Part shown: piece by piece, positions 30,056 to 41,429 of the stretch
Layout: each line of letters starts with the position of its first letter
Position numbering within the stretch: the stretch's first letter is position 1
Source: Thermaerobacter marianensis DSM 12885
GTDB lineage: Bacteria; Bacillota; Sulfobacillia; Thermaerobacterales; Thermaerobacteraceae
Assembly: GCF_000184705.1 (NCBI RefSeq)
Contig: NC_014831.1
Location: 868,001-932,000, forward strand
Direction: 5' to 3'
Length of the DNA stretch: 64,000 nucleotides
The notes under the pieces: model-generated
Database searches by the model: none
Told to the model about the DNA's origin: nothing
Seen by the model: only the letters and a program-made list of their open reading frames with translations
Position numbers and translations under genes: made by a program

Positions 30056-31564
30056 ATGACCACCGGCACCGGTGCGCGCCGGACCAGCGGTCGGCCGCGG
30101 GCCGAGGTACGGCTGCTGGCGCCCACCGGGCACCTGGGTTTCACGCCCCTGGAGAAGGACAGCTTCCTGGCGGGCCTGGAGCGAGACCCCGACTTCGTGG
30201 TGGCCGACTCCGGCAGCTGCGACATCGGGCCCTACCCGCTGGGTGCCGACCAGCCGGCGAGCCCGCCGGCCTGGCAGTACCACGACCTGGAGCTCCTGCT
30301 GGTGGAGACCCGGCGCCGCGGGATCCCGCTGATCATCGGCTCGGCTTCGGACACGGGGACGCGGCGCGGCGTCGACCTCTACGCCCGGATGGTCGCCGGC
30401 ATCGCCGACCGCCACGGCCTGCCGCCCTTCCGCCTGGCGTGCATCTATTCCGACGTGCCGCTGGAGCGGCTGCGGCGGCTGCTGGACGCGGGGGTGCCCA
30501 TCCGCGGCCTGGACGGCCGGCCCCCCCTGAGGCCCGCCGACCTGGACCGCACCTCCCGGGCGGTGGCAGTGATGGGTGCGGAGCCCATCGTGACCGCCCT
30601 GGACGCAGGAGCGGACGTGGTGATCTGCGGCCGGGCCAGCGACGCGGCGATCTTCGCCGCCCCGGCCCTCTGGTGCGGGATGCCGGCCGCCACCGCCTAC
30701 TACGCCGGCAAGGTGCTGGAGTGCGCCTCCTTCTGCGCCGAGCCCTTCATGGCCAAAGAGTCGGTGCTGGGCATCCTGCGCCCCGGCGAGGTGGTGGTGG
30801 AGCCCATGCACCCCGCCCAGCGGTGCACGCCGGCTTCCCTGGCGGGGCACGCCCTCTACGAGCGGGCCACGCCCTTCTTCGAGCACGTGCCGGCGGGCGT
30901 GCTGGACATGCGGGGGTGCGTCTACCAGGCCCTGGACCAGCGCCGCACCCGGGTGACGGGCTTCCAGTTCCGGCCCGCGGCGTCGTATGCCGTCAAGGTG
31001 GAAGGGGCGGGGCCCGTGGGGGAGCGGTTCCTGGCGCTGGCGGGCCTGCGGGACCCCGAGCTGGTCCGGCGGGTCGACGAGGCCGTGGCCTGGGCCCGCC
31101 GCAAGGTGGCGGAGCGGTACGGCACCGCCGGCTACGAGCTCTACTACCACGTGTACGGTCGCAACGCCGTCATGGGGGAGATGGAACCGGAACCCCGTCC
31201 CGGCCACGAGGTGGGGCTCGTGGTGGAGGTGGTCTGCCCCGATCCCGACCGGGGCCGGGAGATCTGCACCATGGCCGCCCGGCAGCTGTTCTACGCCCGG
31301 ATGGAGGGACGAACCGGCACCGCCGGCCGCGCGGCGCTGATGACCGACGAGGTGCTGCGGGCCCGGCCCGCCTACCGCTGGACGCTGAACCACGTGGTAC
31401 CGTTGGACGATCCGCTGAGCTGGTTTCCCATGACTTTGCGCTGGGTCGGGGCGATGCGCCCGGCGGGGGTGCCGGTCGGTGCCGGGGCGGGACGAACCGG
31501 CCCGGGCACCGGCGTGACCGGCCACCCCAGGGTAGGGGAGGCAGCCTGGCATGCGCCTGCGTGA
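30056..31564 (+). CDS. AtuA-like (acyclic terpene utilization, DUF1446) protein
   Basis: A 502-residue cytoplasmic protein of the AtuA/DUF1446 family. It begins RLLAPTGHLGFTPLEKDSF and contains VVADSGSCDIGPYPLG, IIGSASDTGTRRG, ADVVICGRASDAAIFAAPALWCGMP and CTPASLAGHALYE, which are conserved in these proteins. AtuA takes part in citronellol/geraniol breakdown in Pseudomonas; most relatives are uncharacterised. The last 30 or so residues are Gly-rich and carry two copies of the dispersed 9-mer nearby. It overlaps the DUF4387 gene by 14 bp and heads an operon with ABC transport genes. Confidence 0.85.
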   Translation: MTTGTGARRTSGRPRAEVRLLAPTGHLGFTPLEKDSFLAGLERDPDFVVADSGSCDIGPYPLGADQPASPPAWQYHDLELLLVETRRRGIPLIIGSASDTGTRRGVDLYARMVAGIADRHGLPPFRLACIYSDVPLERLRRLLDAGVPIRGLDGRPPLRPADLDRTSRAVAVMGAEPIVTALDAGADVVICGRASDAAIFAAPALWCGMPAATAYYAGKVLECASFCAEPFMAKESVLGILRPGEVVVEPMHPAQRCTPASLAGHALYERATPFFEHVPAGVLDMRGCVYQALDQRRTRVTGFQFRPAASYAVKVEGAGPVGERFLALAGLRDPELVRRVDEAVAWARRKVAERYGTAGYELYYHVYGRNAVMGEMEPEPRPGHEVGLVVEVVCPDPDRGREICTMAARQLFYARMEGRTGTAGRAALMTDEVLRARPAYRWTLNHVVPLDDPLSWFPMTLRWVGAMRPAGVPVGAGAGRTGPGTGVTGHPRVGEAAWHAPA

Positions 31565-31970
31565 CCTCGCCACCACCATCCGCAGCAAGAACGCCGGCGT
31601 CGACCTGATCACCTTCGACATCCTGTTCCCGTCGGAGGAGGCCTATCGCCGGGCCTGCCGGAGCCCGGTGCTGACCCCGGAGTCCATCTGCCGGCTGCTG
31701 AACATCGGGCCCGACCGCCTGTACTGCTTCGTCCGTTTTGACCCCGCTCGGGCCATCAAGTTCACGGTCCGGCGGCGCAGACCGGCCGGTGGACCAGGCG
31801 AGACCGACGTCTTCGGGAGCCAGCAGTACGGGCCCCTTCTGGACCTGGAGGTGGAACCCGACCCGGCCGCCCCGCCGGAGCCGCCCCGGCAGGAAGCGTC
31901 CTTGGTGGGTGCGGGGACCCGCGGGGGGCCGGGGGAACGGCGGGGGAGCGCAGGGATGGGGGAACGGTAG
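31551..31970 (+). CDS. DUF4387 protein
   Basis: A 139-residue protein. The first 105 residues match DUF4387: RLRDLATTIRSKNAGVDLITFDILF, then VLTPESICRLLNI and FDPARAIKFTVRR, closing GSQQYGPLLDLEVE. DUF4387 proteins habitually accompany AtuA-like proteins, and here the start lies inside the AtuA-like frame, so the two are likely partners or subunits. Activity is unknown. The C-terminal 30 residues are low-complexity. The next gene starts 56 bp on. Confidence 0.85.
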   Translation: MRLRDLATTIRSKNAGVDLITFDILFPSEEAYRRACRSPVLTPESICRLLNIGPDRLYCFVRFDPARAIKFTVRRRRPAGGPGETDVFGSQQYGPLLDLEVEPDPAAPPEPPRQEASLVGAGTRGGPGERRGSAGMGER

Positions 31971-32026
31971 CGAGAGCCGCCGGGGGCGGGCGGTCACCGC
32001 CCGCCCCCGGGGAAAGGGGGAGGCCG

Positions 32027-33751
32027 ATGGTCGGCGGCAGGAAGGGTTTGCCCTTGGGATGCGGCCGGGGATCCGGCCGCGGGCAGGGGGAGATGGGCAG
32101 CGGCACGCCGGGTGGGCCCCGGCGCCGGGCCGGCGGCTGGGCCGGCGGGGCCCGCTCCGGGGCCCGCGCCGGGGCCGGGCGCGGGAGGGTCCTGGCGGTG
32201 GTCCTGGTCCTGGTCCTGGCCCTGATCGCCGCCGGGTGTACCGCCGGCAGGCAGGAGCAGGCCGGCGGCGAGGCCGGTTCGTCCGAGGGGAAGGTGCTGA
32301 CCCTGACCCTGGACGGGGCCAAGAACCGCGAGGCGGAGCTGCAGGTCATCGCCCAGTACCTGAAGCAGGTGGGCATCGACGCCCAGGTGCGGGTGTGGGA
32401 GTACCAGACGCTGGTGGCCGAAGCCCAGAAGGGCACCCGCGAGGCCTACGCCACCGACTGGGGCAGCGCCACCTTCACCCCGGTGGACCTGGCGGTGCCC
32501 AAGCTCGAGACGGGCGGCCGCGGCAACTACTCGTTCTACTCCAACCCCGAGGTGGACCGGCTGTTCAAGGAGGCGGCGGCCACCACCGACGAGGCCATCG
32601 CCCTGGAGGCGTACAAGCAGGCGCAGCAGATCCTCTACCAGGACGCGCCGTGGATCTTCGGCTATTACCTGGACGCCATCGAGGCGGCATCGGCCAAGGT
32701 GAAGAACTGGCAGCCCTCCATGGACAGCCGGATCAACCTGCACGACGTGGAGCTGGAGGGCGGCGACACCCTGGTGGTGGGCCTGCGGGCGGACCGCATC
32801 CTCTCCCTGGATCCGGCGGCCTACCGGGACCGGGACACGGAGACGGTGATCCGGAACATCTACGACGGCCTGGTGACCCGCACCCCTGACGGCCGGGTGG
32901 TGCCGGAGATCGCCGAGTCGTGGGAGCAGCCGGACCCGACCACCTACGTGTTCAAGCTCCGGCGGGGCATCAAGTTCCACAACGGCGAGGACCTGACGGC
33001 CGACGACGTGGTCTACACCTTCGAACGCATCCTGGCCGACGACGGCCTGGACGGCCAGCCCTCGCCGCGCAAGGGCCTGGTGGAGCCGCTCCAGTCCGTC
33101 GAGAAGATCGACGACTACACGGTGCGGATGAAGCTGGCCAACCCGTCGGCCGCGTTCCTCCAGCTGCTGGTGCACACCCAGATCGTGCCCAAGGACTACG
33201 TCGAAGAAGTCGGCAGTGCGGGCCTGTCGCAGCGGCCCGTGGGGGCAGGGCCCTTCCGCTTCGTGGAGGGCACCCTGGACGGGCAGATCGTGCTGGAGCG
33301 GTTCGACGACTACTACGGCGGTTCACCGGACCTGCCGCCCGTCGGTCCGGCCAAGGTCAAGCGGGTGATCTTCCGCATGATGCCGGAGCCGGCCACCCGT
33401 ATCGCCGCCCTGCAGAACGGGGAGGTCCACATCATCCAGGAGGTGCCGCCGGACCTGGTGGCCCAGCTGGAGAACGATCCCGACGTGCAGGTCAAGGTCA
33501 CCCAGGGGACGCGGCTCTACATGATCGAGCTCAACACCCAGAAGCTTGCCGACCCGCGGGTGCGCCAGGCGCTGAACTACGCCATCAACTGGGACGAATT
33601 GCTGCAGGAGCTCTACAAGGGGCACGCCCACCGGGTGGCGACGGCCATGCTGCCCAGCGGCTTCGGCTACGACGAGAGCCTGAAGCCCTACCCCTACGAC
33701 CCGGCGAAGGCGAAGCAGCTGCTGCAGGAGGCGGGGTACAAGGTCGACTGA
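32027..33751 (+). CDS. Circularly permuted family-5 ABC substrate-binding lipoprotein
   Basis: A 574-residue solute-binding lipoprotein. A basic, Gly-rich leader (1-53) and hydrophobic stretch (55-70) end at lipid-bearing Cys71 (LIAAGC). The family's order is reversed after that. Residues 89-244 are what normally forms the C-terminal third (QYLKQVGIDAQVRVWEYQTL, TDWGSATFTPVDLAVPKL, GNYSFYSNPEVDRLF, KVKNWQPSMDSRINLHDV). Residues 246-574 are the normal N-terminal two-thirds (LRADRILSLDPAAYRDRD, GLVTRTPDGRVVPEIAESW, FKLRRGIKFHNGEDLTADDV) and stop at DPAKAKQLLQEAGYKVD, exactly where the missing part would continue. Each block occurs once and total length is normal. It is followed by two cognate permeases. 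Confidence 0.92.
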   Translation: MVGGRKGLPLGCGRGSGRGQGEMGSGTPGGPRRRAGGWAGGARSGARAGAGRGRVLAVVLVLVLALIAAGCTAGRQEQAGGEAGSSEGKVLTLTLDGAKNREAELQVIAQYLKQVGIDAQVRVWEYQTLVAEAQKGTREAYATDWGSATFTPVDLAVPKLETGGRGNYSFYSNPEVDRLFKEAAATTDEAIALEAYKQAQQILYQDAPWIFGYYLDAIEAASAKVKNWQPSMDSRINLHDVELEGGDTLVVGLRADRILSLDPAAYRDRDTETVIRNIYDGLVTRTPDGRVVPEIAESWEQPDPTTYVFKLRRGIKFHNGEDLTADDVVYTFERILADDGLDGQPSPRKGLVEPLQSVEKIDDYTVRMKLANPSAAFLQLLVHTQIVPKDYVEEVGSAGLSQRPVGAGPFRFVEGTLDGQIVLERFDDYYGGSPDLPPVGPAKVKRVIFRMMPEPATRIAALQNGEVHIIQEVPPDLVAQLENDPDVQVKVTQGTRLYMIELNTQKLADPRVRQALNYAINWDELLQELYKGHAHRVATAMLPSGFGYDESLKPYPYDPAKAKQLLQEAGYKVD

Positions 33752-34014: not shown

Positions 34015-35034
34015 ATGCGCGGCGGGTGGGTCTTGCGCCGGGTGGCCATGGCCCTGCCCCTGGCGGTGGGGATCGTGCTGGTGAGCTTCATCCTGCTGCG
34101 GGTGATGCCGGGGGACCCCGTGGACATCATGCTCCGCGGAGGCGGCACGTCCAGCGAAGAGGAGGCCCGAGCCCTGGCCCGCCAGCTGGGCCTGGACCAG
34201 CCGCTTCCCGTGCAGCTGGCCCGGTTCGTGGCCGACCTGGCCCGTGGCGACCTGGGCGAGTCCATCCGCAGCCGCCAGCCGGTGGGGCAGATGCTGCGGG
34301 CGACCCTGCCCGCCACGGTGGAGCTGGCCCTGGCGGCCCTGGTCTTCGCCGTCGCGGTCGGGGTGGCGCTGGGCGTCCTGGCGGCCACCCGCCGCGGCTC
34401 CTGGCTGGATCGGGCCGTCATGGCCGTGGCCTCCCTGGGGGTCTCCATGCCGGCCTTCTGGTTCGGCATCGTACTGATGCTGGTGCTGGCGGTGGGGACG
34501 GGGTGGCTGCCCACCTCGGGGCGGATCGCCTCCCAATACGCCGGCACGGTGCCCTGGCGTACCGGGTTCCTCCTGATCGACACGCTGCTGGCGGGGAACG
34601 GGGCCGCCTTTCGCTCCGCCGTCGCCCACCTGGTGTTGCCGGCGGTCACCCTGGGGGCCGAGCTGGCGGCGGTGGTGGCCCGGGTCACCCGCTCCAGCAT
34701 GCTGGAGGTCCTGGGGGCCGAGTTCATCCGCACGGCACGGGCCAAGGGGCTGCACGAGCGGCGGGTGATCCTGGTCCACGCCCTGCGCAACGCCCTGATC
34801 CCCACCGCCAGTGTGGTGGGCCTGCAGGCCGGGGTGCTGCTGGGCGGCAACATGATCGTCGAGACGGTGTTCAGCTGGCCGGGACTGGGGCGGCTGGTGG
34901 TCGAGGCCATCTTCGCCCGGGATTACCCCGTGGTGCAGGGGGCGGTGATGGTCTACGCCCTGACGTTCCTGGTGATGAACCTGCTGGTCGATCTGGCGTA
35001 CACGTGGCTGGATCCGCGCATCCGGGAGGCGTAG
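34015..35034 (+). CDS. ABC transporter permease, DppB/OppB type
   Basis: A 339-residue permease with six helices. The N-terminal LRRVAMALPLAVGIVLVSFILLRVMPGDPV and the EAA-loop region EFIRTARAKGLHERRVILVHALRNALIPT are typical of DppB. The ATG at 34015 has GGGGAGGTGA upstream; the open frame before it is composition only. It pairs with the permuted binding protein and the DppC-like permease. No ABC ATPase genes are in the operon, so shared ATPases elsewhere must power it. Confidence 0.93.
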   Translation: MRGGWVLRRVAMALPLAVGIVLVSFILLRVMPGDPVDIMLRGGGTSSEEEARALARQLGLDQPLPVQLARFVADLARGDLGESIRSRQPVGQMLRATLPATVELALAALVFAVAVGVALGVLAATRRGSWLDRAVMAVASLGVSMPAFWFGIVLMLVLAVGTGWLPTSGRIASQYAGTVPWRTGFLLIDTLLAGNGAAFRSAVAHLVLPAVTLGAELAAVVARVTRSSMLEVLGAEFIRTARAKGLHERRVILVHALRNALIPTASVVGLQAGVLLGGNMIVETVFSWPGLGRLVVEAIFARDYPVVQGAVMVYALTFLVMNLLVDLAYTWLDPRIREA

Positions 35035-35241
35035 GGGGCCGGGAACCGGGTACCTGGGCCGGCCGGGACCGGGCCGGGGCCCGGGGATGGAGCCCAAGCC
35101 CGGGGACGGGCGCCGCGGACGGGGGCCGGGCGCGGACGCCGGGGATCGGGCCGGGGCCCGGGGAGGGGCCCGGGACCGACGCCGGGACCCCCGGGGCGAG
35201 GGGGCCCAACGGGACCTGGGACCGGCGGAGGAGGGTCGGAG

Positions 35242-36405
35242 ATGGCCGATACGGGAGACGGATTCGAAGGGGTGGTGCGGCGGGAGGAACCGGCCGCGGC
35301 GCGGGAACCCGACGCGGTGCCCGTCCGTCCGGCGGTACCCCGGCCGGGTTCGTCCGGCAGGGGGGTATGGGCCGTGACCGGTAGCACCTGGCCGGCCCCG
35401 GGCGCCCATCCGACCGTCCCGCCGATGGGCTCCGGCCCCGGGGATGCCGGTCCGGGCTCTGGCCGTGGCCCCGGCCCCGGTGGCCCGTCCCCCGGTTTCG
35501 GAGGGACGCCGGCCCCTGGCGCAGCCCCGGTCCCCGCTGCGTGGTGGCGGGCATGGCGGCGCCACCCCCAGGTGACCATCGGCCTGGTGGTGGTCCTGCT
35601 GTACGTGCTGGCCGCCCTGACCGCACCGTGGCTGGCCCCTTACGACCCCGAAGACTTCACCCTCAGCGCCCGGCTGGCCCCACCGGCCTTCCTGCCCGGC
35701 GGCCAGCCCGAGCACCTGCTGGGCACCGACCGGGTGGGCCGCGACCTGCTGACCCGGATGCTCTACGGGGCCCGGGTGTCCCTTCTGGTGGGGGCGGCCG
35801 CGGTCACGGTGGCGGGGGTGGTGGGGTCGGTGCTGGGCGCCGTGGGCGGCTACGCCGGCGGCCTGATCGACCAGGTGCTCTCCCGGGCGGCCGACCTGCT
35901 GATGGCCTTTCCGTACCTGCTCTTCACCATCCTGATGATGGGGATCCTGGGGCCCGGCATCGGCAACCTGATCCTGGCCCTGACCTTCAAGGCATGGGTG
36001 GAGTTCTTCCGGGTGGCGCGAGGCCAGGTGCTGGCGGAGAAGGCCAAGCCCTACGTGGAGGCGGCCCGGGCCATCGGCCGCAGCCACGCCGGCATCCTGG
36101 CGCGGGAGATCCTGCCCAACATTCTGCACGCGCTGCTGGTGGTGGCCACCCTGCGGGCCGGCTACATGATCTTGATGGAGGCGTCCTTGAGCTTCCTGGG
36201 CATCGGCGTCCCCCCCGACGTGCCGGCGTGGGGCTCCATGGTGGCCGAGGGGCGCGACTACCTGGGCACGGCCTGGTGGGTCTCGACCCTGCCCGGCCTG
36301 GCCGTGCTGGTGCTGGTGCTGGCGGTCAATACCCTGGGCGACGGGCTGCGGGAGATGCTGGACCCGCGGCTGCGGGTGGAACGGCTTGAAGGAGGCAGCC
36401 GGTAG
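35242..36405 (+). CDS. ABC transporter permease, DppC/OppC type, with long N-terminal extension
   Basis: A 387-residue permease. Residues about 1-100 are a Gly/Pro-rich extension; the start is supported by GGAGGAGGG eight bases before ATG 35242, so the extension is probably translated. The core has the DppC pattern: GTDRVGRDLLTRMLYGARVSL, EAA-loop EAARAIGRSHAGILAREILPN, and FLGIGVPPDVPAWGSMVAEGRDYL. It forms the membrane channel with the DppB-like partner. A copy of the dispersed 9-mer lies in the extension (35347). Confidence 0.92.
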   Translation: MADTGDGFEGVVRREEPAAAREPDAVPVRPAVPRPGSSGRGVWAVTGSTWPAPGAHPTVPPMGSGPGDAGPGSGRGPGPGGPSPGFGGTPAPGAAPVPAAWWRAWRRHPQVTIGLVVVLLYVLAALTAPWLAPYDPEDFTLSARLAPPAFLPGGQPEHLLGTDRVGRDLLTRMLYGARVSLLVGAAAVTVAGVVGSVLGAVGGYAGGLIDQVLSRAADLLMAFPYLLFTILMMGILGPGIGNLILALTFKAWVEFFRVARGQVLAEKAKPYVEAARAIGRSHAGILAREILPNILHALLVVATLRAGYMILMEASLSFLGIGVPPDVPAWGSMVAEGRDYLGTAWWVSTLPGLAVLVLVLAVNTLGDGLREMLDPRLRVERLEGGSR

Positions 36406-36578: not shown

Positions 36579-37688
36579 ATGGCGATGCCCGTCATCGGCA
36601 TCGCGGCATCGGTGGAAGTCATGACCCCCGCCGCTCGCGGCGGGGGTTCGTCGCCGGTAAGGGGGGCGGGACGGGCCGTGGGCGGGACGGGATCTGCCCC
36701 GGCCTCCCACCCTCTCCACGGCCGGTGGCCCCCACCAGCCATGGACCCGCCTCGTGGACCGGCGGCCGGGGTCGACCCCGGCTCCGACCCGGCCGTCGCA
36801 CCCAGGTCCGCGCTGGAACGGGGATGCAGTCCGGCCCCGGCGTCCGGATCCGGGGCCGGGCCGGGAGGCGGGTCGGCCCCGCGCCCCGCCGAGGACGCCG
36901 AGGGGCCGGTTCCCATCGCCGCCGTCCTGCCCATGACGTACGTCGAGGCGGTGGCGGCAGCGGGCGGCCTGCCGGTGATCCTGCCCGTGGCAGGCCCGGA
37001 GGTGGCGGTGGATCCTTGGCTGGACCGGCTGGACGGCCTGGTGGTGCCCGGGAATTATCCCTTCCTTCCTGCGGACCTGCGGGCGCTGCCGGGGCTGCGG
37101 GAGCAGGCGCCGCGCCGGTATGACTCCGACGTGGCCTGGTTGCGGGGTGCCCTGGCGCGGGGAATGCCGGTCTTGGCCATCTGCCGCGGCATGCAGACCC
37201 TCAACGAGCTCTTGGGCGGAACGTTGACCCGGCGCGTTCATCCGCCAGGGTCCCACCTGCAGGCGGGGCCGGGCCTCACGGGCGGCCACGGCCTGTGGGT
37301 CGAACCCGGCTCCCGCCTGGCGGCTTGCCTTGGCGGTCGCACCCGGCTGCGCGTCAACAGCTACCACGTGGCGGCCGTGCGCCAGGCGGGCCGGGGGTTG
37401 CGGGTCAGCGCCCGGGCCCAGGACGGCGTGGTGGAGGCCATCGAAGGGACGGGCGAGGTCTTCGTCCTCGGGGTCCAGTTCCACCCCGAGCTGATCTGGC
37501 GGGACGAACCGGCCCTGGCGGGCATCTTCACGGGCCTGATCGAGGCGGCGAGGGCGTACCGGGACGGCCGGTCACGAGCGCGCCCGGCGCGAGAGCCGGT
37601 CGAAATGGAGCCGGCTGGGCCGGGTGCGGTGGTGCCGGACCCGGCGGCGGACCAGGCCGTGGTCGCGGCCGGCACGCTGCAGGCTTGA
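36579..37688 (+). CDS. Class I glutamine-amidotransferase-like hydrolase (peptidase C26, PuuD type) with a 95-residue insertion
   Basis: A 369-residue hydrolase related to gamma-glutamyl-GABA hydrolase. The first strand (MPVIGIAAS, residues 3-11) is separated from the second conserved block (MTYVEAVAAAGGLPVILP, about 119-136) by a Gly/Pro/Ala-rich insertion of about 95 residues. In PuuD these are about 20-30 residues apart. The catalytic Cys202 (AICRGMQTLNELLGG) and His302/Glu304 (GVQFHPEL) are intact. The insertion lies before the core fold and may be a flexible loop. ATG 36579 follows GGGAG. As last gene of the AtuA/ABC operon it may cleave a gamma-glutamyl compound imported by the transporter; that is inference. 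Confidence 0.88.
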   Translation: MAMPVIGIAASVEVMTPAARGGGSSPVRGAGRAVGGTGSAPASHPLHGRWPPPAMDPPRGPAAGVDPGSDPAVAPRSALERGCSPAPASGSGAGPGGGSAPRPAEDAEGPVPIAAVLPMTYVEAVAAAGGLPVILPVAGPEVAVDPWLDRLDGLVVPGNYPFLPADLRALPGLREQAPRRYDSDVAWLRGALARGMPVLAICRGMQTLNELLGGTLTRRVHPPGSHLQAGPGLTGGHGLWVEPGSRLAACLGGRTRLRVNSYHVAAVRQAGRGLRVSARAQDGVVEAIEGTGEVFVLGVQFHPELIWRDEPALAGIFTGLIEAARAYRDGRSRARPAREPVEMEPAGPGAVVPDPAADQAVVAAGTLQA

Positions 37689-39922: not shown

Positions 39923-40387
39923 TCAGGGTGGCCCGGGCGCCAGGAAGAGGGCATGGGGGCACACGCTGGCCTCCATCACCGCGGCCGGGGCTGGTTCCAC
40001 CCGGTCGAAGGCGCAAGTGCCCTTACGGTTGTAGTGGCAACCGTGGGACACGCACAACGGCCGGTAGAGGCCCGGGGCGGGGGCCGTGTCCGGTGCCGGG
40101 GCCGCCCCGCGGGCCGACGTCGTCCCCAGGGCCGGGTTCATCCGGGCTCGTTGCGCCCGGACGAACGCGGCCACGTAGCGCTGCCAGGGGAGCCAGAGCC
40201 CCGGCAGCGGCGCGGGGGTGGGACGGAGCGGGAGGTCGGAGGCGGCGCCCGGCTCCCCGGCGGCCGGGAGGATTGCGTCCGGGCGGGGGGATGCCAAGCG
40301 GGCCGTGTCCAGGTGGGGGGATGCCCAGGGTCCCCTGGGCTGGCGGGGGGACGGCGCGTTCCGCGGCTTGGGCGCCTCAGGTTTCAT
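39923..40387 (-). CDS. Small Cys/His-rich (DUF1540-like) protein coupled to nuoB
   Basis: A 154-residue product. ATG 40387 overlaps the nuoB stop by 11 bp, so translation is probably coupled. The first half is Pro-rich with one Trp-rich amphipathic stretch ([20 protein letters not shown]). The end, [21 protein letters not shown] and then SVCPH, has the spacing C-x4-C-x-YN-x-x-G-x-C of DUF1540-type zinc or metal-binding domains. Long frames on the opposite strand are less plausible. I infer it is real from the motif and the overlap; function unknown. Confidence 0.55.
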
Positions 40388-41429
40388 GGGCCACACCGAT
40401 CTTCCGCACCTTGTCCTGCAGCTTGAGGATGGCGTGGACCAGCGCCTCGGGGCGCGGCGGGCAGCCGGCCACGTAGACGTCAACGGGGATGATCTTGTCC
40501 ACGCCGTCCACCACGTTGTAGCCCTGGTAGTACGGCCCGCCGTTGGTGGCGCAAGCACCCATGGAGACGACGAACTTGGGCTCGGCCATCTGGTCGTAGA
40601 GGGTCTTGACCACCGGCGCCATCTTCTCCGTGACCGTGCCCGAGACGATCATCAGGTCCGCCTGGCGCGGCGAGGCGCGGAAGACCGAGCCAATGCGGTC
40701 CAGGTCGGTGCGGGTGCCGCCGGCGGCCATCATCTCGATGGCACAGCAGGCCAGGCCGAAGAGCAGATACCACATCGAGTTGGCCCGGCCCCAGTTGACC
40801 AGCTCCTGGAGCCGGGTGGTCAGGATACCCGGCAGCCACTGCCACACGCCCGGGATGCGCATGGAGGGATGGGCGTCCAGGCGGCGGATCACGTCGGGCT
40901 CCAGCTCGTCCTCCTGGGAGAAGCGGGGCCCTTCGCCGGCGGGGGCCCCCGTCACCTCCGGCTCGGGGCTCTGGGCGGTGATGGCCCGCACCCGGGCTTG
41001 CCGCTCCCGCATCGCCTCCGAAGTGGCGGGCCGGGCGCCCTGGCCGCTGACGGGCGTGGGGTACGGCTTGGATTCGGCGCGGCGTACGGCGGCGCGGAGG
41101 TCGCCGGTGCGGCCGTCTCCTTCCCGTGCGCTGAAGCTGGCGCCGGGGCCGGTGGACCGTTCCCCCTCGCCGGAGCCGGCGCCGCCGGCGGTGGTGGAAC
41201 CGGTGACCGGCGCCCGGGTGCCGTGGCCGGCGGTGGAACGGGTCGTGGGAGCGCGGGTGCCTTGATCGGCCGGGGAACCGGCCGTGGTGGCCCCGGGGCC
41301 ACCGTCGGCGCCGGGGCCCCCTGCGGTCCGGGAGCTGGGGCCCGGCGCATTGGGTCCGTCACCGTGGCGGTCCCCGCCGTCTCTCGCGTTCTCGGGAGGC
41401 CCGGAGGTGCGGTCGCCGTCCTGGGGCAT
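40377..41429 (-). CDS. nuoB: NADH-quinone oxidoreductase subunit B with about 195-residue extension
   Basis: A 350-residue protein. The NuoB domain occupies about 195-350 and ligates iron-sulfur cluster N2, the last before quinone. Cys228 and Cys229 ([12 protein letters not shown]), Cys293 ([12 protein letters not shown]) and Cys323 ([10 protein letters not shown]) are all present. Before it lies a disordered Gly/Thr/Ala-rich extension with repeated TRAP-T-T/GHGTRAP-like units (about 58-76). Most NuoB proteins have fewer than 50 residues there. ATG 41429 has GAGGTGA at good spacing, so the extension seems genuine. No other nuo gene is in the window, so this copy is isolated. Confidence 0.93.

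Follow-up and report, generated by a model that had tools for sequence, protein, structure and literature searches.

Organization of the locus

We analysed a window of 64,000 nucleotides from Thermaerobacter marianensis DSM 12885; all positions below are those of the window and, unless stated otherwise, all features lie on its forward (+) strand. An open reading frame of 574 amino acids extends from 32027 to 33751. The Shine-Dalgarno-like sequence AGGGGGAGG, read directly at 32015 to 32023, lies 3 nucleotides upstream of the ATG. The protein starts with a long signal peptide (32027 to 32239) that ends in the lipobox AAGC (residues 68 to 71); the lipidated cysteine, Cys71, is encoded at 32237 to 32239 and is also present in the aligned permuted relatives. 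It is followed by a flexible linker leading to the first strand (32240 to 32290), for which the constraint is relaxed (dN/dS of 0.4–0.7 against relatives). The mature protein is then composed of two blocks, hereafter the C-block (residues 89 to 244, positions 32291 to 32758) and the N-block (residues 246 to 574, positions 32762 to 33748), the latter ending with LLQEAGYKVD just before the stop codon.

Two permease genes follow. The first encodes a DppB-type protein (34015 to 35034; Pfam BPD_transp_1, 144.6 bits), its reading frame being open from 33841 with a likely start at 34015, and the second a DppC-type protein (35242 to 36405; Pfam BPD_transp_1 and OppC_N). The ribosome site, lipoprotein signal and cognate permeases that a first-pass annotation had assigned to this gene are thus all in place. 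Unlike that of most relatives, the Thermaerobacter importer operon (permeases at 34015 to 36405) has DppB and DppC without adjacent DppD and DppF; 16 matches to DppD/F-like ATPases were found in the genome and none within the 64-kb window. The ATPases are likely shared from elsewhere in the genome.

Three further genes are recurrent neighbours: those of an AtuA-family protein (30056 to 31564; Pfam AtuA) and of a DUF4387 protein (31551 to 31970; Pfam DUF4387) upstream, and that of a peptidase C26, similar to gamma-glutamyl-GABA hydrolase (36579 to 37688), downstream. The AtuA and DUF4387 genes (30056 to 31970) overlap by a few bases, and the pair adjoins the importer in several phyla. The peptidase C26 gene scored 99 bits against NCBIfam PRK11366, below the cut-off of 266. 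Farther away, on the reverse strand, the gene at 40377 to 41429 encodes a NuoB-like protein with a long N-terminal extension which, judged from the translation, is rich in Pro, Thr and Gly; its start codon may be misplaced.

The two segments of the family-5 fold are in swapped order

The first-pass annotation had claimed that the usual order of family-5 solute-binding proteins is inverted here, the C-terminal segment preceding the N-terminal one. Phmmer matches of the two segments to PDB chains bear this out. Against 5u4o_A, query residues 261 to 571 matched chain residues 57 to 359 (143 bits), and query residues 92 to 243 matched chain residues 366 to 520 (60 bits); the same swapped pattern was obtained with 6ofq_A and 1uqw_A. 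Among solved family-5 chains are E. coli DppA (1dpe/1dpp), YliB/GsiB (1uqw) and a B. anthracis protein (5u4o). The Pfam profile PF00496 (SBP_bac_5) recognized the protein with 302 bits (cut-off 32.4) in two stretches, and in a search of the whole genome the gene at 32027 to 33751 was the only one in which the tail of the profile (275 to 359) lay upstream of its head (2 to 282). The ten other SBP_bac_5 genes of T. marianensis were all co-linear with the profile. HMMs made for each block agreed: the C-block scored 248 bits, and the N-then-C order was found in nine of these ten genes, the C-block being undetected in the tenth. A co-linear reading of both segments is rejected by the swapped phmmer matches and by the genome-wide order of the profile.

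In canonical terms, the C-block corresponds to the second half of lobe 2 (domain III) together with the C-terminal piece of domain I, and the N-block to domain I, domain II, domain I again and the first half of domain III. Each block is present once, nothing is missing and the mature length, 504 amino acids, is normal for the family, as had been proposed. We also built a profile from 45 permuted proteins and ran it against solved chains: it retrieved the same chains, and none of the 60 listed gave a full-length match in a single stretch. The standard N-to-C order usual in family 5, a topological and not a homology criterion, is thus replaced by C-block then N-block, while both halves are homologous to one parent, are swapped, occur once each and share its predicted fold, as in a natural circular permutant. 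Taken together, these results show that the product of the reading frame is a circularly permuted family-5 (DppA/OppA-type, cluster C) lipoprotein.

The junction is the most constrained part of the protein

We then compared the linker with that of unpermuted sisters. In the latter the conserved mature part begins with GGTIVIAL or similar and ends with NMHRVKL or INLHDVGL. In the permuted proteins INLHDVxL runs into GDTxVVG with few residues in between, the new C-terminus consists of LLxEAGY plus a few residues, and the new N-terminus is the next strand, KxLxLxID. The T. marianensis junction reads LHDVELE-G-GDT (32744 to 32776) and connects what are canonically the C-terminus and the mature N-terminus; the junction coordinates of the first-pass annotation, near 32290 and 32760, were right.

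Both blocks are under purifying selection (dN/dS of 0.15–0.25 for the C-block and 0.15–0.20 for the N-block), and the strongest constraint, with a dN/dS of 0–0.08, was measured in a stretch of 36 residues around the junction. These values bear on whether the gene could be a remnant, that is, a C-terminal fragment fused to a C-terminally truncated gene whose product is non-functional or folds only as fragments. Each block alone is indeed an incomplete fold, and the ATPase genes are absent from beside the Thermaerobacter operon. Against a remnant stand the selection on both blocks, strongest at the junction, the conservation of the operon, the highly confident single-chain model described below and a frame that is open in nearly all relatives. 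The low dN/dS and the intact frames in relatives lead us to reject a pseudogene, which we consider very improbable. In one relative, genome G011, the C-block of the permuted gene carries an in-frame TAG (L012:1333-3070 and L040:5180-6917, apparently the same sequence).

Predicted fold and position of the lipid anchor

AlphaFold2 gave for the permuted protein a model with a pLDDT of 94.6 and a pTM of 0.89; the canonical sister from Caldanaerobacter subterraneus (L066) reached 93.9 and 0.89. Short elements aside, the helix and strand lists of the two models are cyclic shifts of each other. With a sequential aligner, the permuted model matched 1uqw_A over 316 residues (Z of 27.9, 2.0 Å) and the canonical one over 471 residues (Z of 44.9, 1.7 Å); the Foldseek TMq values to this chain were 0.58 and 0.90, respectively. 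Comparison of the models made the N-block equivalent to mature residues 1 to 342 of the 507 of DppA. In the permuted model the aligner spanned only residues 160 to 491, a limit that a permutation would impose and that we do not take as a sign of a new fold. The three-domain, bilobed cluster C fold is thus a prediction, and the assignment to the same fold draws on how confident the models are, on the order of their elements and on alignments of part of the chain. The prediction is a confident single chain in which joining the old termini is sterically feasible, as the first-pass annotation had judged.

One may ask whether the protein is instead a domain-swapped dimer, in which lobe 2 would be completed by lobe 1 of a partner chain. 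AliC, a cluster C protein, was crystallised as an intertwined dimer (PMC11192437), and the very short linker of the permutant could favour swapping. The predicted monomer, however, is confident throughout and its junction has no low-confidence linker, which would argue against swapping, and we regard such a dimer as unlikely.

In AliD, lobe 1 is made of residues 29 to 296 and 583 to 617 and lobe 2 of the single contiguous segment 297 to 582; both canonical termini are in lobe 1 (PMC11192437), which agrees with the earlier statement that the two termini of the family share a lobe. Domain III of EppA is likewise contiguous (PMC7312458). Judged by these AliD and EppA landmarks, the loop that was cut belongs to lobe 2 and the old termini belong to lobe 1; the lipid anchor would accordingly have passed from lobe 1 to lobe 2.

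The permuted form is old and widespread

The same order was sought in related genomes and was found in the genus, the family, the class and across five phyla. All three other genomes of the genus that were searched, as well as one genome of the same family, contain the permuted order (83–92% identity over the mature protein), and other families of the class have it at about 55–65% identity. When the permuted protein L015 was used as a query, 21 of 154 genomes of the class gave a strong match, near full-length and co-linear in the matches listed. About 50 distinct permuted sequences were collected from Bacillota, Armatimonadota, Deinococcota, Thermodesulfobacteriota and Myxococcota (NCBI phyla), many of the genomes being metagenome bins with taxonomy as deposited; within the Bacillota, a scan of species genomes located permuted members in Moorella mulderi, Limnochordaceae and Fermentithermobacillaceae. 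Cultured isolates carry the order as well, for example Moorella mulderi DSM 14980 (L035).

For a single genome, two family-5 genes joined chimerically during assembly or cloning are a general possibility, and we found nothing else in favour of such an artefact. The same junctions are present in other genomes of the genus, in cultured isolates such as M. mulderi DSM 14980 and in dozens of metagenome assemblies; this recurrence across independent assemblies refutes an artefact, whose probability we consider practically nil. The permuted form is old. Dozens of assemblies made independently, among them those of cultured isolates, show this order, so that it is neither a misassembly nor a chance event. 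Conservation across phyla, purifying selection and operon context also support the earlier suggestion that the protein is probably functional.

Two members stand apart. L029 (1330-3198) encodes a permuted family-5 protein whose branch is very long; it has diverged too far to be placed and is possibly a further lineage. In a metagenome-assembled genome of the Desulfobacteraceae (L060:7932-13238), a permuted binding protein forms the N-terminal part of a protein of 1769 amino acids that also contains three SBP_bac_3 domains, HisKA, HATPase_c and a receiver domain. Dpp genes were not detected near L060, and the permuted domain is apparently used as a sensor.

Unpermuted sisters occupy equivalent operons

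The same subfamily exists in normal order in Caldanaerobacter subterraneus (L066), Thermoanaerobacter (L065) and Syntrophomonadaceae (L076, L077), with block scores of about 450–500 and 155–220 bits. Permuted and unpermuted proteins are about 60% identical in the N-block and about 50% in the C-block. Both forms are found in similar operons (binding protein, DppB, DppC and usually DppD and DppF), and genes for AtuA, DUF4387, peptidase C26 and a GntR regulator recur around permuted and unpermuted genes alike. Among the matches listed for 299 genomes of the phylum, none showed both forms of the subfamily together, which fits an orthologous replacement, orthology by position being our inference.

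The chain order appears to have changed several times

Trees were built on blocks restored to one order, L029 being left out of the later ones. The main permuted clade (support 100/99) has as its sister the canonical clade of Thermoanaerobacteraceae, with more canonical sequences below. The permuted lineage L015 branches outside this pair (support 92/76), and a single permuted clade within the main subfamily was rejected (p = 0.0018). A distant DppA-like clade (L016, L017, L023, L025, L135 and L136) has its cut in the same loop; a common origin with the main permuted clade was strongly rejected (AU p about 1e-40), and this clade was permuted independently. Within this clade, the canonical L030 and L138 group with the permuted L017 (88/90), and in a focused tree a single permuted clade gave a weak p of 0.0365, so that the order may have changed again there.

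Arginine 383 and aspartate 436 of DppA bind the termini of the dipeptide (PMC12136057). In the L016 to L025 rows of the DppA-like permuted clade their equivalents are kept, and the permuted scaffold of this clade would for that reason keep the known ligand site.

For the main subfamily, the permutation could have been gained once, in an ancestor that included the L015 lineage, with a later reversion of the Thermoanaerobacteraceae clade. On the rooted tree this history costs the same number of changes as two gains. It requires, however, that the chain was permuted again at precisely this position, L015 is placed at only 92/76, and the DppA-like clade needs an event of its own anyway; we consider a single gain with reversal possible but the less favoured history. 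We lean instead towards the loop that follows the LLxEAGY helix being a recurrent permutation site, with at least three switches of order (main clade, L015 and DppA-like clade), possibly including reversals. Such switches would have given a natural set of proteins that occupy equivalent operons but differ in chain order, with the anchor moving between lobes.

Discussion

We conclude, with a probability of about 0.93, that the product of 32027 to 33751 is a functional, naturally circularly permuted binding lipoprotein of a Dpp/Opp-type ABC importer. The sequence shows its canonical C-terminus linked by a few residues to the canonical mature N-terminus, with the new termini in the loop that separates the LLxEAGY helix from the following strand; the fold predicted for the chain is the two-lobed one usual in cluster C. 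The lipid anchor would hold lobe 2, with lobe 1 as one contiguous segment inserted into a split lobe 2, and the ligand would be caught between the lobes by Venus-flytrap closure and handed to DppB and DppC. The gene may have arisen by tandem duplication and in-frame fusion followed by loss of the outer halves, which would have placed the signal peptide ahead of the second half of lobe 2. A duplication intermediate (N-C-N-C) was not found in this analysis.

As the unpermuted sisters have similar operons and shared sequence motifs, the ligand class is probably theirs. In a by-eye alignment with the DppA-like clade (precursor numbering), the column of D436 is non-acidic in the T. marianensis protein and that of R383 is ambiguous; since D436 binds the peptide amino group in DppA, something other than a dipeptide may be bound. 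As a guess from the neighbouring C26 and AtuA genes, the ligand could be a gamma-glutamyl or carboxylate compound.

Family 5 is among the commonest families of binding proteins, and to our knowledge its chain order has hitherto been taken as fixed. With DppA/OppA-type proteins (PF00496, cluster C) the T. marianensis protein shares both blocks, the predicted elements, the lipoprotein signal and the DppB/DppC operon; these proteins have their termini in lobe 1 and the standard order, whereas its own termini would be in lobe 2 and its blocks are swapped. The first-pass annotation knew of no natural permutation in this family, and we found no earlier report of one in the open-access literature, outside which most subscription journals lie; permutation is known in other clusters of binding proteins. 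TpMglB-2 (Tp0684) of Treponema pallidum is a natural, lipid-anchored circular permutant that has kept its function and for which a "Type Ic/Cluster Bc" was proposed (PMC4990184). Natural permutation of a lipid-anchored substrate-binding protein is common to both cases, but TpMglB-2 has a type I (cluster B) sugar-binding fold, another cut and a poor sequence match in the moved part, whereas our protein is a cluster C, family-5 protein in which both blocks are clearly homologous and which has close homologues in unpermuted form; it matches cluster C family-5 proteins and is thus no member of Type Ic/Cluster Bc, a type marked by a type I sugar-binding fold with permuted N-lobe strands. Circular permutation was also described among glycine betaine-binding proteins (2B4L and others), molybdate-binding proteins and CysB (CPSARST, PMC2395249). 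These are smaller proteins with less than 24% identity, related by structure comparison, in contrast to the present subfamily, whose two forms are about 50–60% identical per block.

Co-linear domain scanners and structure aligners under-describe permuted family-5 proteins. The tolerated permutation site could serve for engineering biosensors from family 5, and the natural pairs of permuted and unpermuted proteins in equivalent operons make the effects of chain topology and anchor position on ligand capture and docking testable.
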